A stretch of 64,000 bases of DNA. Source: Maricaulis maris. Its GTDB lineage: Bacteria; Pseudomonadota; Alphaproteobacteria; Caulobacterales; Maricaulaceae. The notes under the pieces are model-generated. The model was not told where the DNA came from, ran no database searches, and worked only from the letters and a program-made list of their open reading frames with translations. The translations under genes were made by a program, and so were the position numbers. Shown here piece after piece: positions 3,909 through 52,933 of the stretch. The DNA lies in NCBI RefSeq assembly GCF_003634045.1, contig NZ_RBIM01000007.1, positions 1 through 64,000 of the forward strand, in the 5' to 3' direction. The number at the start of each line of letters is the position of its first letter. The first letter of the stretch is position 1.

Positions 3909-3964
3909 CCATAATTTCCTTGTCAGCCAGCGGATACGGCTGACTCCCGGCAAGGGATATATGG
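3909..3964. repeat. Long-hairpin repeat, minimal copy lacking the core (P5)
   Basis: The outer arms CCATAATTTCCTTGTCAGCC and GGCAAGGGATATATGG correspond to the ends of the 130-bp hairpin repeats at 43542 and 46552. The whole inner stem and loop are missing: the left arm joins directly to GATACGGCTGACTCCC. The conserved outer flank (TGTGCGCCGGGGCGC) follows. The rest of 3803-4100 shows no gene. Confidence 0.7.
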
Positions 3965-6436: not shown

Positions 6437-7312
6437 TCAGTCGATCGCGCCAAGCTGGCCGGCCGCGTAGGCCGCCTGCACGGCCTCGATTTCCTGGGCG
6501 GTGCTCATCACGAATGGACCTTGTTGCACGAAGGTCTCGCGCACGGGCTCGCCTTGCAGAAGGACGAGATGCGCACCGGTGTCACTTTGAACGCGTATTG
6601 AAGGTGCATTGGCATGGCTTCGAAGCGCGAGGGCGGTGCCCTTGTCCAGGATGGCCCAGGTGTCGCCCGCCTGGAGGCGCGCCTCGCCATCAACCACCAG
6701 CAGCCATGACGCCTGCCGTGTCTTGCCGCGGTGCGTGAACGCTCCGCCCGCTTGCAGGTGGATGTCGAGGATCGTCAGCGGCAGCGCCGGAGAAGATGCC
6801 CCGATGACACCATTGCTCTGCCCCAGCACAACACGCACACGGTGCTTGTCGCCTGTGATGATTGGCATTTCGGCGGCAGGAAGATGAAGAGAGGCCGGCG
6901 CGTCCGCCTTGTGCTTGGCAGGCAGGTTCACGAAAACCTGCAAGGCATGGATCCTGGCCCCCGGTCTTGGCGCCTCGTCATGGACCGCGCCTCGACCCGC
7001 CTTGAGCCAGTAAAGGTCCCCGGGCGCGATCTCGAAATCATTACCGAGCGAATCGCGATTGTGGAATTGCCCTTCACTGTCCTCGAAGAGAATTGACACC
7101 GCAGACATGCCGGCGTGGGGGTGAGCGCCGAAGGTCGGCTCGGTCATCACGAAATGATCTACCATGACCAGCGGATCCATCAGCCCGTCGAAGCGATCCT
7201 GCTTGAAGCTCAGGGCCTCAAATCCGTCACCGATGACAAGTGGGCGCCCACGTACGGGGCGGGAAATGTCGAGTCCGATCCGCTCTTCATCGTCCAGGGT
7301 TTGGGTCGGCAT
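6437..7312 (-). CDS. Pirin family protein (bicupin)
   Basis: This 291-residue bicupin carries the metal ligands H64 and H66 (GAHPHAGMS), H111 and E113 (GAVHDEAP) in its N-terminal cupin, as in pirins with quercetinase-like or regulatory activity. The pirin C-terminal domain follows from about residue 180. The start at 7312 is chosen because TGGAGA lies at good distance; the ATG at 7324 has no ribosome site. It is divergent from the LysR gene. Confidence 0.9.
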   Translation of the reverse strand: MPTQTLDDEERIGLDISRPVRGRPLVIGDGFEALSFKQDRFDGLMDPLVMVDHFVMTEPTFGAHPHAGMSAVSILFEDSEGQFHNRDSLGNDFEIAPGDLYWLKAGRGAVHDEAPRPGARIHALQVFVNLPAKHKADAPASLHLPAAEMPIITGDKHRVRVVLGQSNGVIGASSPALPLTILDIHLQAGGAFTHRGKTRQASWLLVVDGEARLQAGDTWAILDKGTALALRSHANAPSIRVQSDTGAHLVLLQGEPVRETFVQQGPFVMSTAQEIEAVQAAYAAGQLGAID

Positions 7313-25990: not shown

Positions 25991-26120
25991 CCATAGACCG
26001 CTTGCCGAGAGACCGCCGCATCCGCTTCTTCAGGTCAAGGGCCGCAGAGCGGCCGCTGCGTGGTTTCACCCTTGAGCTGAAGAACCGGATACGGCCTGCT
26101 GGCTGATAAGCGTGCTATGG
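25991..26120. repeat. Long-hairpin repeat (P1), outer arms reversed
   Basis: The unit is 130 bases: outer arm CCATAGACCGCTTGCCGAG, inner arm CGCATCCGCTTCTTCAGGTC, loop hairpin GGCCGC-AGA-GCGGCC, then CCCTTGAGCTGAAG and TGGCTGATAAGCGTGCTATGG. Compared with the copies at 43542 and 46552 the outer arms are swapped while the core keeps its orientation. The intergenic stretch 25898-26202 holds only this element and its flank. Confidence 0.85.
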
Positions 26121-43541: not shown

Positions 43542-43672
43542 CCATACATCACTTGTCAGCCAGCGGGCCGTATCGGGGTCTTCAGGTCAAGGGCGCCGCA
43601 GGCGCCGCTTCGCGGGTATGCCCCTTGAGCTGAAGACCCCGATACGGCTGTCTCCCGGCAAGTGAAGTATGG
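43542..43672. repeat. Long-hairpin repeat (P3)
   Basis: Outer arms CCATACATCACTTGTCAGCC and GGCAAGTGAAGTATGG; inner arms 43567-43593 and 43622-43648 (27 bp, one mismatch) containing TATCGGGGTCTTCAG and CTGAAGACCCCGATA; loop hairpin GGCGCC-GCA-GGCGCC. Compared with the copies at 46552 and 51961 several pairs change on both strands together. The outer flank GTGTGCGCCGGGGCG follows, as at 3965. Confidence 0.9.
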
Positions 43673-46551: not shown

Positions 46552-46681
46552 CCATACATCCCTTGTCAGCCAGCGGGCCGTATCCGGTTCTTGAGGTCAA
46601 GGGCGGCGTAGCCGCCGCTTCGCGGGCTTCCCCTTGAGCTCAAGAAGCGGATGCGGCTTTCTCTCGGCAAGGGATGTATGG
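46552..46681. repeat. Long-hairpin repeat (P4)
   Basis: Outer arms CCATACATCCCTTG and CAAGGGATGTATGG are exact 14-bp complements. Inner arms 46577-46603 and 46631-46657; the loop hairpin is GGCGGC-GTA-GCCGCC. It has the same orientation as the copy at 43542, so the two bracket the usp-sulP pair as direct repeats. The interval 46308-46875 holds the SulP upstream region, this element and the hairpin at 46742. Confidence 0.9.
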
Positions 46682-46741
46682 CGGGGCGTGCGCCCGTGCG
46701 CCGGTTGACAGGGCTGGATTGGATCATGCCGCTGCACCCGT

Positions 46742-46764
46742 CCTTCTCCCCTCGCGGGAGAAGG
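46742..46764. repeat. REP-like hairpin CCTTCTCCC/GGGAGAAGG
   Basis: A 9-bp perfect stem around CTCGC, followed by TGGCCTGAAGGGCCGGATGAGGGG. This is a very widespread proteobacterial intergenic hairpin type. Confidence 0.7.
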
Positions 46765-46875
46765 TGGCCTGAAGGGCCGGATGAGGGGGGAGGCAGCTCC
46801 GGTGCAAACCGGCATGGCTCCCAGACCTCGTCTGACGCTATCCTCGCCCCCTACCAGCCTCACCCGGACCCAACC

Positions 46876-47610
46876 ATGCGCGCAGACCTCTACCTCGTCG
46901 AACACGGCCATTTCGACACCCGCGCCCGCGCCCAGGCGGCGATTGCGGCGGGGAAGGTTTCGGCGAACGGGGTCACGGTGACCAAGCCGTCGCAGAAGAT
47001 TGCGGACGGGGCCGAGATCGTCGCCGAGGCGGCGCATCCCTGGGTGTCTCGGGCGGCGCTGAAGCTGGTGGCGGGGCTGGACGGGTTTGGTGTCGATCCG
47101 ACCGACCGGGTCTGCCTCGATGTCGGATCATCGACCGGCGGTTTCACCGAGGTCTTGTTGTCGCGCGGGGCGCGGCATGTCTATGCGGTGGATGTCGGGC
47201 GCGACCAGCTCCACCCCTCGCTTCAGGCTGATCGGCGGGTCACATCGCTGGAGGCGACCGATGCCAGGTCATTGGCCGCCGAGATGTTTTCCGAGCCGCC
47301 CTCGCTGCTGGTCTGCGATGCCAGCTTCATTTCACTGCTGAAGGTCATCGCCCGCCCCCTGGCGCTGAGCGCGGCGCGCAGCGACCTGATCGCGCTGATC
47401 AAACCCCAGTTCGAAGTCGGCAAGGCCTTGATCGGCAAGGGCGGTCTGGTGAAGAGCGAGACGGCACGCGATGACGCAGTGGCGACCGTGCGTGCGGAAT
47501 TGGACGGACTGGAGAATTTCTCGGTACGCGCGGTCATGGACAGTCCGATAGAGGGGGGCGACGGCAATCGGGAATACCTTATTGCCGCCGCCCGCAATCA
47601 CCAAGCCTGA
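46876..47610 (+). CDS. tlyA: TlyA-family rRNA 2'-O-methyltransferase (hemolysin A family)
   Basis: The 244-residue protein has an S4 RNA-binding domain (about 1-60, RADLYLVEHGHFDTRARAQAA) and an FtsJ-like methyltransferase domain with the SAM motif LDVGSSTGGFTEVLL (81-95); the tail KPQFEVGK is typical. TlyA methylates 2'-hydroxyls in 16S and 23S rRNA. In relatives it follows dxs; here usp, sulP and repeats intervene. ATG 46876 is the first consistent with the S4 start. Confidence 0.92.
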   Translation: MRADLYLVEHGHFDTRARAQAAIAAGKVSANGVTVTKPSQKIADGAEIVAEAAHPWVSRAALKLVAGLDGFGVDPTDRVCLDVGSSTGGFTEVLLSRGARHVYAVDVGRDQLHPSLQADRRVTSLEATDARSLAAEMFSEPPSLLVCDASFISLLKVIARPLALSAARSDLIALIKPQFEVGKALIGKGGLVKSETARDDAVATVRAELDGLENFSVRAVMDSPIEGGDGNREYLIAAARNHQA

Positions 47611-51217: not shown

Positions 51218-51727
51218 TCACGCGGCCGACTGCGCTTTGCGGATCCAGCGGGCAAGGCGGGTGGTCACCGAGGGACGCGAGAATTCGTGCATGAAGGCGT
51301 CGAGATCGGCGGCATCGGGGAAATCGGGCGTCGGTTCGACCGGCGTCTCCCCCTCGGCCTGAACGCGGATCGTCACACTGATACGGTCTTCGCCAACCGC
51401 CGCAAGGTCGGTGCCATCGCGTGTTCCGGCCGGGATGCGCACCAGCAGCGGTTTGTCGCCATGACGCAAGGTCCGGGTCAGTCCGCGCGCCGCTTGGGCC
51501 GCACTGATCTCGATCTCGAGGCAGACCGGCGCGTTGGCCCGGATATAGTCCATCGCCGCAACGATCCGCGCGAGTTCGGTGAGCGTGGCCGTCGTCGGTG
51601 GTGTGACGTCAGGATGCAAGCGTTTGACGCGGCTGCGAAACGCCGCACGCGCCGCCGCTACACCGTCCATCGGGGCCACCCCGAGGACAGCGAAAGCCGC
51701 ATCCAAACTCACAACACGCGATGTCAT
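51218..51727 (-). CDS. Mini J-protein with partial DnaJ C-terminal domain
   Basis: The 169-residue protein has a J-domain with HPD at 38-40 (VKRLHPDVTP) in a helix II/III-like context (residues 8-65). Residues 72-125 resemble one DnaJ/CbpA substrate-binding sandwich: LEIEISAAQAARGLTRTLRHG and LLVRIPAGTRDGTDLAAVGEDRIS. The Gly/Phe linker and zinc finger are missing. It would stimulate DnaK ATPase for some client. It lies between aroC and pdxH, as in other alphaproteobacteria. Confidence 0.8.
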   Translation of the reverse strand: MTSRVVSLDAAFAVLGVAPMDGVAAARAAFRSRVKRLHPDVTPPTTATLTELARIVAAMDYIRANAPVCLEIEISAAQAARGLTRTLRHGDKPLLVRIPAGTRDGTDLAAVGEDRISVTIRVQAEGETPVEPTPDFPDAADLDAFMHEFSRPSVTTRLARWIRKAQSAA

Positions 51728-51852: not shown

Positions 51853-51916
51853 GTCTGTCCCGGTTATTCCAACGCGCAAAAAATGGTATGTGTCCCCATT
51901 TATTCACGGGACAGAC
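51853..51916. repeat. Inverted GTCTGTCCC/GGGACAGAC element
   Basis: Exact 9-bp arms (51853-51861 and 51908-51916) enclose ATGGTATGTGTCCCCATTT. The motif resembles the conserved ends near REP-associated transposase elements, but no transposase gene is here. The interval 51728-52258 contains this and the repeat at 51961, and no gene. Confidence 0.5.
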
Positions 51917-51960
51917 ACAATTAGTGCCCGTCTACGTCTGCGCCCCCGGCGCAAATTCCC

Positions 51961-52092
51961 CCATAAACCGCTTGCCGAGAGTCCGCCGTATCCGCTTCTT
52001 CAGGTCAAGGGCGCCGCAGAGCGGCCGCTGCGCGGTTTCACCCTTGAGCTGAAGAAGCGGATACGGCCTGCTGGCTGACAAGCGCTGTATGG
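51961..52092. repeat. Long-hairpin repeat (P2), outer arms reversed
   Basis: Inner arms 51985-52011 and 52041-52067 are 27-bp complements with one mismatch (GCCGTATCCGCTTCTTCAG against CTGAAGAAGCGGATACGGC). Outer arms CCATAAACCGCTTGCC and GACAAGCGCTGTATGG. The core hairpin is GCCGC-AGA-GCGGC. The orientation of outer relative to core matches the copy at 25991, and differs from those at 43542 and 46552. Confidence 0.9.
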
Positions 52093-52258
52093 ATGGCTCC
52101 GCACCGGGCGCCCTTTTTCAGTGGCGAACAGGGAAGCTGCGTGCGCGTGCTTGATGTCGCTGGAAACCGCGCCGTCCGCTGGCGATGGACGCACCGGGAA
52201 AGCTTGACGTGCCGGGTCAGGCGCTTACCTAGGCGGACGTGTTCCAGGAGCGCCCCCG

Positions 52259-52933
52259 ATGTCCGACGACAAACTCATCCCGCCCAGTCCCGACGCCGAG
52301 ACCTATGCCAGGACGGCGGTCGCGACTGCCAATGCCGTGGAAATTTTCGACCGTGAGGACCCCTTTGCCCTGTTCGCCGACTGGCTGACCGAGGCGAAGA
52401 AGAAAGAGCCCAATGATGCCAATGCGGTGGCGTTGGCGACGGCGGATGCGTCCGGCCTGCCGGATGTGCGCATGGTGCTCTTGAAGGATGTCGATGTCGA
52501 CGGTTTCGTCTTCTACACCAATCTGGAGAGCGGCAAGGGCGGGCAATTGGCGGAAAACCCGCAGGCGGCGCTTTGTTTTCACTGGAAGTCCCTGCGTCGG
52601 CAGGTGCGGGTAAGGGGGGCGGTCGAGCCGGTCAGCGCCGAGGAGGCCGACGCCTATTTCGCCTCGCGTGCCCGTGACAGCCGGATCGGGGCCTGGGCCT
52701 CGAAACAGTCGCGGCCGCTGGAAAGCCGTTTTGCGCTGGAAAAATCGGTCGCCCGCGAAGCGGCCCGCTTCGGTCTGGGCGAGGTGCCGCGCCCGCCGCA
52801 CTGGTCAGGCTTTCGCATCCGCCCGCTGAGCCTGGAGTTCTGGCGCGACCGCCCCTTCCGTCTGCATGATAGAATGTTTTTTGACAGGCCGGATTTGGGG
52901 TCGACTTGGACTGTGAGCCGGTTATATCCCTGA
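52259..52933 (+). CDS. pdxH: Pyridoxamine/pyridoxine 5'-phosphate oxidase
   Basis: The 224-residue FMN enzyme oxidises pyridoxine or pyridoxamine phosphate to pyridoxal phosphate. Features: [44 protein letters not shown] in parts, [12 protein letters not shown], and the C-terminal [16 protein letters not shown] ribosome site (CAGGAGCG) precedes the ATG. It is divergent from the J-protein gene across the repeats. Confidence 0.95.

Follow-up and report, generated by a model that had tools for sequence, protein, structure and literature searches.

A Dispersed Family of Hairpin Elements with Covarying Arms and Replication-Aligned Loops in Maricaulis

Hairpin copies in the window and their anatomy

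The stretch of DNA analyzed here (the window, 64,000 nucleotides from a Maricaulis genome) contains four copies of a long hairpin, at 25991–26120, 43542–43672, 46552–46681 and 51961–52092, all on the + strand. An earlier note had listed these four copies; all are found where it placed them, and each folds into one long hairpin (z = −5.49, −8.78, −8.42 and −7.94, respectively, against 200 dinucleotide shuffles, none of which folds as well as any of the four). The paired arm changes that it quoted can all be read in the sequences, while the copies at 25991 and 46552 also carry some non-Watson-Crick positions within the arms. The list itself was incomplete: it overlooked a fifth, core-deleted copy at 3909–3964 (+ strand), a remnant with both outer ends present and the inner hairpin deleted (identified by blastn, the covariance model and a search for ends), and the family in the genome is larger, with 55 full copies.

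The copy at 51961–52092 (+ strand), delimited by alignment, folding and the covariance model, sits between a leftward ORF (51218–51727) without a Pfam match and a rightward pyridoxamine-phosphate-oxidase-like gene (52259–52933). It is a full copy with one type of outer end, alpha, on the left and the other, beta, on the right. Folding, alignment and site comparison define the other three full copies: the one at 25991–26120 also has its alpha end on the left, and the matching site in the closed genome G016 is occupied (at 921496); those at 43542–43672 and 46552–46681 have the beta end on the left, and the matching G016 sites are without a copy. Immediately to the left of the 51961 copy lies a different repeat, GTATGTGTCCCC..GGGACAGACAC, at 51886–51918. 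In the ORF list, an FtsJ/S4 rRNA-methyltransferase-like gene (46651–47610) is given a start that lies within the right end of the copy at 46552; probably the true start lies downstream of the copy, or the element extends into the leader of the gene.

From the outside inward, the plan of the hairpin is a palindromic end, an asymmetric internal loop, an arm, a G.G or G-C position, a clamp and, beyond the clamp, two small hairpins that complete a three-way junction, and a short 3′ linker. End alpha reads ..CTTGCCGAGA and the opposite end, beta, reads ..CTTGTCAGCCAG. In the 51961 copy (+ strand throughout), the alpha outer palindrome and the left side of the internal loop occupy 51961–51984, and this outer helix covaries in the alignment of diverse elements. 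The left variable arm (51985–52003, 19 nt) pairs with the right variable arm (52049–52067, 19 nt) according to both folding and covariation. Between the arms, alignment and covariation place the G of a G.G mismatch followed by the TCAAGG half of the clamp (52004–52010) and, on the other side, the CCTTGA half followed by the second G of the mismatch (52042–52048). The loop (52011–52041), defined by folding and orientation analysis, consists of two small hairpins, a 3′ linker (TTTCA) and a flanking G and C. The right side of the internal loop and the beta outer palindrome (alignment, covariation) complete the element at 52068–52092. Throughout the family, an arm consists of a GCC/GGC base and approximately 16 bp of variable sequence, approximately 19 bp in total, nearly free in sequence and near-perfect in pairing.

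We define the canonical strand of an element by the order of its loop parts (hairpin-hairpin-linker). This rule orients 122 of 131 elements, the other nine being dropped, and an independent structural rule agrees with it in 40 of 40 cases. As DNA, the canonical strand is the better-folding one in 33 of 40 copies. At the position beside the clamp, the orientable elements have G.G in 78 cases, G-C in 43, T.C in one and C.C in none. Of the 2,317 cells at positions 2 to 20 outward, 2,244 are Watson-Crick, a value inflated by selection, since the element scan accepted only candidates with 13 or more of 17 positions paired and with the clamp motif. The copies from the genome of the window, in contrast, were found by blastn without any motif rule, and all 40 of them have TCAAGG and 38 have CCTTGA. 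Positions 21–23, 26 and 27, in the internal loop, remain unpaired (2–9% paired). Because the elements in all these sets are related to one another and some are orthologous, the counts are not independent. GANTC, the CcrM methylation site, is present in one of the 40 copies (the 51961 copy) against 14.9 expected from mononucleotide shuffles; this apparent avoidance may owe something to the palindromic design alone.

Number and distribution of the elements

The earlier note had proposed building a covariance model and searching related genomes. We built the model from the copies in the genome of the window, where blastn gives 70 matches over both strands; of 41 copies retrieved, 40 entered the alignment, one half-copy (L035) being left out. 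With this model we find 55 full copies in the 3.57-Mb genome (110 matches, nearly every place being listed once per strand and one place being the remnant at 3909; 150 of 4,678 first-look candidates were scored). One of the 55 copies (C7:215475) consists partly of N. Among 18 other Maricaulis genomes, 15 have matches, from 1 to at least 56 each; since matches are mostly listed once per strand, the copy number is approximately half of these values. Counted by position, and excluding short or weak matches below 50 bits, the closed genomes G016 and G010 have 42 and 25 copies. The model matches none of 18 genomes from 18 other genera of the family; of 24 further genomes in the order it matches four, weakly.

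We also scanned GTDB genomes with a pattern for the core of the element. Among the 80 matches listed (of 90 stretches in total), 46 are from Maricaulis. Outside the genus, the core pattern leads to elements in Bradyrhizobium, Hyphomonas, a Hyphomicrobiales metagenome-assembled genome (MAG), other alphaproteobacterial MAGs and MAGs of Acidobacteria and Thermoanaerobaculia (91 loci were searched in one such step). A second, more general model matches 11 of 13 such outside genomes, with 1 to 13 matches each when the strands are counted apart. Most of the non-Maricaulis genomes with elements are MAGs, in which foreign contigs are possible. In an even draw of 385 Alphaproteobacteria, at least six match, the genome of the window included; this is a lower bound, obtained with strict filters and eight candidates scored per genome. 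Many core-pattern matches in other taxa are due to chance and lack the hairpin, as folding of 22 loci showed for matches in Limimaricola, Paracidovorax, Brevirhabdus and Clostridiales. With one copy as query, plasmids and phages give no match; among viral contigs there is one, an IMG/VR contig (L274) that ends inside its core-pattern match (6957–6986).

Five loci from another family of the same order (L060, L061, L068, L069 and L074) hold shorter relatives, with the same clamp and arms and no outer palindrome; on their right side, a stretch around AGGCTGGCTGTGGCCGAATGGCAG is conserved. Five Acidobacteria elements (L238, L240, L241, L249 and L251) follow the same inner plan and have outer ends reading TGACATTCCCCGGAT; on one contig (L270), two copies have approximately 20 nt of left flank in common beyond the palindrome. 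Short forms with both ends and no inner hairpin occur at window position 3909, at two other sites in the same genome and in one Acidobacteria genome. A search for ends apart from full copies, covering 278 kb of the genome of the window and 280 kb of G016, gave three short forms, two doubtful G016 matches and one lone beta end, at G000:C7:220968 on the minus strand, with no alpha partner in the 60 nt shown. No longer element sharing the same ends was seen in three Acidobacteria genomes.

The earlier note knew of no named family with this layout, and we likewise find none: Rfam has no match in the window (and none at E ≤ 1 for 51900–52150), and no description of the hairpin family was found in the literature, most subscription papers being out of reach.

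Covariation, gene context and replication polarity

The arms of these hairpins covary overwhelmingly. We compared the observed pairs with shuffled controls and with controls in which the partners were slid, in place of the R-scape test that had been suggested. In the 40 copies from the genome of the window, 16 of 38 pairs are changed on both sides, and there are 106 two-sided cells (35.3 shuffled, at most 11 slid). In 26 diverse elements, two-sided changes occur in 36 of 49 pairs (23.8 shuffled, at most 27 slid) and in 243 cells (75.5 shuffled, at most 65 slid), and the covariation score is 0.498 (0.128 shuffled, at most 0.112 slid). Mean identity is 42% over the 18-nt arms in the 28 sequences from which the 26 were taken. 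The claim that base pairing itself is preserved therefore stands, and it extends well beyond the copies on which it was first based: more copies keep their arms correlated, and the pattern is present in many genomes, so that neither outcome named in the earlier note as a refutation was observed. These elements are a natural record of compensatory change that resembles DNA and not RNA pairing: the arms differ greatly in sequence, yet their length is constant and they remain paired.

The same tendency is seen at matching sites in different genomes. We listed 17 candidate orthologous pairs, of which 14 are comparable (in one of them a single flank matches), and loop direction is kept in 13 of the 14. 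Over these 13 pairs the arms show 12 one-sided and 9 two-sided changes, 6 of the 9 from one Watson-Crick pair to another, compared with approximately 55 one-sided and 4 two-sided expected under an assumed unconstrained divergence of 12%. One pair (L041/L114) has three two-sided arm changes, all toward the common arm. In the 14th pair (L108/L197), the ends and arms are almost identical, and the loop is reversed and of different sequence; the loci are 92–94% identical over kilobases, the right flank being nearly identical for approximately 190 nt and the left for approximately 25 nt before it diverges. This single reversal may reflect conversion from another copy. At another site, an element is present in one genome (G014) and absent from a second (G018, which has no match anywhere), with flanks 88–90% identical and no clean duplication. 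A DDE-type MITE would have terminal inverted repeats with a target-site duplication; here an outer palindrome is present, and at the sites compared we saw neither a clean duplication nor a clean border of insertion.

Does the pairing operate in RNA or in DNA? The earlier note had left this open, as a structured RNA or a DNA hairpin recognized by a protein, and the two can be partly separated. If the pairing were in RNA, G.U should be tolerated above A.C. On the canonical strand we count 19 G.T and 15 A.C among 2,317 cells (p = 0.61), G.T amounting to 0.8% of cells, so that no such excess is present. If the element were part of a transcript, its strand should follow the genes. Using a home-made gene caller on 44 copies, we find 39 clear of called genes, 2 inside a doubtful ORF and 3 partly overlapping a called ORF. 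Thirteen of the 44 lie in convergent, 14 in tandem (the two ORF-internal copies included) and 8 in divergent contexts, and 9 are without a called neighbor on one side. In tandem contexts, seven copies run along the genes and seven against them; relative to the nearest gene, 18 copies are on the same strand and 24 on the opposite one (42 copies, the two ORF-internal ones left out). There is thus no gene-strand preference. Convergent regions are somewhat enriched (13 of 35 versus 20 of 98; Fisher p = 0.067), and ORF lists reveal no common neighbor gene.

The loop, by comparison, is aligned with replication. On the contig of the window, 15 of 15 copies point in the same direction, and GC skew is positive throughout. 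Measured with 20-kb skew samples near each copy, 47 of the 55 copies have their loop (canonical) strand on the G-rich, leading-sense strand (p = 8e-8); a cruder small-sample estimate of skew gives 37 of 55 (p = 0.014). With origin and terminus placed by skew samples, the corresponding counts are 31 of 40 in G016 and 18 of 24 in G010, two copies and one copy near replication borders having been dropped; several copies are orthologous between the three genomes, and the polarity counts are accordingly not independent. The minority orientation accounts for 8 of 55, 9 of 40 and 6 of 24 copies, respectively. The origin-proximal third of the chromosome is poor in copies (3 of 42 in G016 and 1 of 25 in G010). 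In the genome of the window, the loop strand agrees with the G-rich strand in 17 of 18 alpha-left and 19 of 22 beta-left copies (36 of 40). Since the loop agrees in both forms, the outer ends themselves point either way at random (20:20). In the standard geometry of replication, the G-rich strand is the lagging-strand template; the hairpin that forms there would thus be the one with G.G, not C.C. The lack of a G.T excess, an orientation blind to the nearest gene and a loop aligned with replication favor DNA over RNA as the working form. Any structured repeat can be examined in the same two ways, by comparing G.T with A.C and by checking alignment with replication, to separate DNA from RNA pairing.

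Possible explanations and comparison with known systems

What kind of element is this? We consider the hairpins, with moderate confidence, to be a new family of dispersed, mostly intergenic, REPIN-like non-autonomous elements that act as folded single-stranded DNA, without a known partner enzyme. The fixed plan, dispersal, patchy copy number, covariation, the absence of a wobble excess, loop polarity, the better folding of the canonical strand as DNA, the scarcity of copies near the origin, differences in site occupancy and the remnants all count for a single-strand DNA element. It is tempting to hypothesize that an enzyme, still to be named, recognizes the folded strand by its shape together with the TCAAGG/CCTTGA clamp, the G.G mismatch and the three-way junction, and that it copies or moves the element on the lagging-strand template, by analogy with the action of IS200/IS605 transposases and RAYTs on hairpins. 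The variable arms would then be spacers, constrained in length and pairing only. If an enzyme does read the folded lagging-strand template without a RAYT or an IS200 transposase, then there is a class of enzymes processing single-strand DNA that is yet to be discovered. Several observations weigh against this REPIN-like reading. There is no partner and no defined insertion product; the three Acidobacteria genomes show no longer element sharing the ends; pairing is maintained at fixed sites, which a dead insertion would not need; the orientation bias lies in the loop and not in the ends that a transposase would normally use; and copies of the minority orientation are not rare. Loop-borne polarity fits a polar replication signal at least as well.

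Such a signal would be a replication-polar chromosome site that does not move, a hairpin on the lagging-strand template that aids priming, restart or directional traffic and is held at fixed sites by selection. Phage single-strand initiation hairpins and KOPS-like signals have roles of this kind. Loop polarity, the scarcity of copies near the origin, the pairing maintained at orthologous sites and the one site at which near-identical ends and arms enclose a reversed, different loop are all as expected of it; we nevertheless think it unlikely, because a range from 0 to 55 copies within one genus rules out a general essential role, and the spread into other phyla is patchy. One reversed site of 14, moreover, tells little about flipping. 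A structured RNA, either a UTR element or a small RNA, in which selection for RNA pairing preserves the stem, would account for covariation like that of RNA families and for the strongly negative folding energies. Against it count the near equality of G.T and A.C, the lack of a strand preference relative to genes and an inner core that is found in both orientations within the outer ends (52 versus 44 of 122 elements, the remaining 26 not being so classed). These points, together with the empty Rfam search, make an RNA role improbable to us.

Could the matched arms have arisen without any selected hairpin function? The elements might be selfish or inert palindromes in which replication template switching and conversion between copies match the arms, with loop reversal as a by-product. 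Near-perfect Watson-Crick arms, the loop reversed or replaced at one orthologous site and the many similar donor copies per genome agree with such a process, and the two-sided changes of L041/L114 all go toward the common arm, as conversion would give. We are doubtful all the same: template switching through the G.G mismatch should erase it, yet it persists in 78 of 122 oriented elements; the internal-loop positions stay unpaired; and the clamp is conserved in copies found without that motif. The persisting mismatch in particular makes it less likely that mutation alone matched the arms. A further proposal is that the chromosomal hairpins are a shape-recognized, replication-polar single-strand DNA signal of a new kind on the lagging-strand template, shared across phyla and served by a putative protein; its three-way-junction module would set polarity independently of the ends and could be re-set in place, by loop reversal, to face the fork. 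This is speculative, and we put it no higher than the polar site, the structured RNA or the inert palindrome.

We compared the elements with known families of repeats. Caulobacter CIR elements are intergenic inverted repeats of approximately 110 bp in which a linker joins two arms and a GANTC site is present (PMC2229807). Our elements resemble them as intergenic inverted repeats of Alphaproteobacteria; however, they form a single stem closed by 5′-3′ pairing and not two stem-loops with a linker, and GANTC occurs in 1 of 40 copies, so we rejected this assignment. ERIC, NEMIS, YPAL, RUP and other MITE-like repeats appear in the same source as small, dispersed, long stem-loops (PMC2229807). No clean target-site duplication was seen at the sites of our elements that were compared, and neither free-sequence arms nor replication polarity are described for those repeats in the part of the source consulted here.

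The end boxes of integron attC sites are RYYYAAC and GTTRRRY. This R-box pair is present in 0 of 40 copies, and an IntI integrase above the TIGR02249 cut-off in 0 of 19 Maricaulis genomes; weaker matches occur in 19 of 19 and in 14 of 14 controls. An assignment to attC was accordingly rejected. The attC sites are single-strand hairpins recognized by shape with little sequence conservation (PMC2727003). Recognition of a single-strand hairpin by shape is what we propose for our elements as well; their copies are dispersed, whereas attC sites are arrayed.

IS200/IS605 elements use the lagging-strand template, follow replication in their orientation and prefer termination sites (PMC5371812). The likeness to this family (IS608, ISDra2) lies in folded DNA on the lagging-strand template and an orientation that follows replication, which here holds for the loop only. 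Our elements differ in that they contain no transposase gene and have their bias in the loop, not in the ends. Y1_Tnp, the domain of a RAYT partner, has no match in the genome of the window, in a transposase search that covered the Y1 family of HUH enzymes. Four of 12 Maricaulis genomes examined (of 19) have one or two Y1 transposases, and eight Y1_Tnp loci of other genomes contain no copy of the hairpin.

Other repeats accompany the Y1 genes and the hairpins. Inverted repeats like GGGACACGTACC lie beside Y1 genes in three of four Maricaulis loci examined (L228, L229 and L234; not L230), and these, with the GTATGTGTCCCC..GGGACAGACAC repeat, may be the true RAYT-associated REP of Maricaulis. 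The GGGACACGTACC-like motif is within 250 bp of 6 of 40 hairpin copies and of 4.7% of random window positions. Palindromes of the form GTCATCCC..GGGATGAC, approximately 125–170 bp long, are very common across Maricaulis and often adjoin hairpins (L051:1295–1466; left flank of L049). CGTC-tagged REPs are commonest in Alphaproteobacteria and have no known transposase (PMC3733652); possibly the palindromes are the REP pairs of this type described for Alphaproteobacteria. Several copies and short forms on the contig of the window (G000:C7, near 91330, 120450 and 184450) have a further repeated hairpin, approximately GTCCCGGATCGCGC..GCGCGTCCGGGAAAAATG, on their 5′ side.

REPINs are REP doublets that form hairpins and are thought to be moved by RAYTs. 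The tags of REP sequences are not above chance beside our elements: CGTC occurs in the left 50 nt of 17 of 40 copies (15.9 expected) and GTAG in 6 of 40 (11.3 expected), and the right 50 nt have CGTC in 12 of 40 and GTAG in 4 of 40. With these tag counts and no cognate Y1 transposase found, we rejected membership in REP/RAYT, although it is IS200/IS605 elements, REPINs and CGTC-tagged REPs that our elements resemble most in their working. One study describes REPINs as conserved modules around a fixed-length spacer that is able to pair and has compensatory changes (PMC3116915). Our elements, like the REPINs of that account, are small, dispersed, intergenic hairpins with a fixed-length paired spacer in which compensatory changes occur (PMC3116915); unlike REPINs, they have an apical three-way junction, a conserved clamp and a polarity that resides in the loop.
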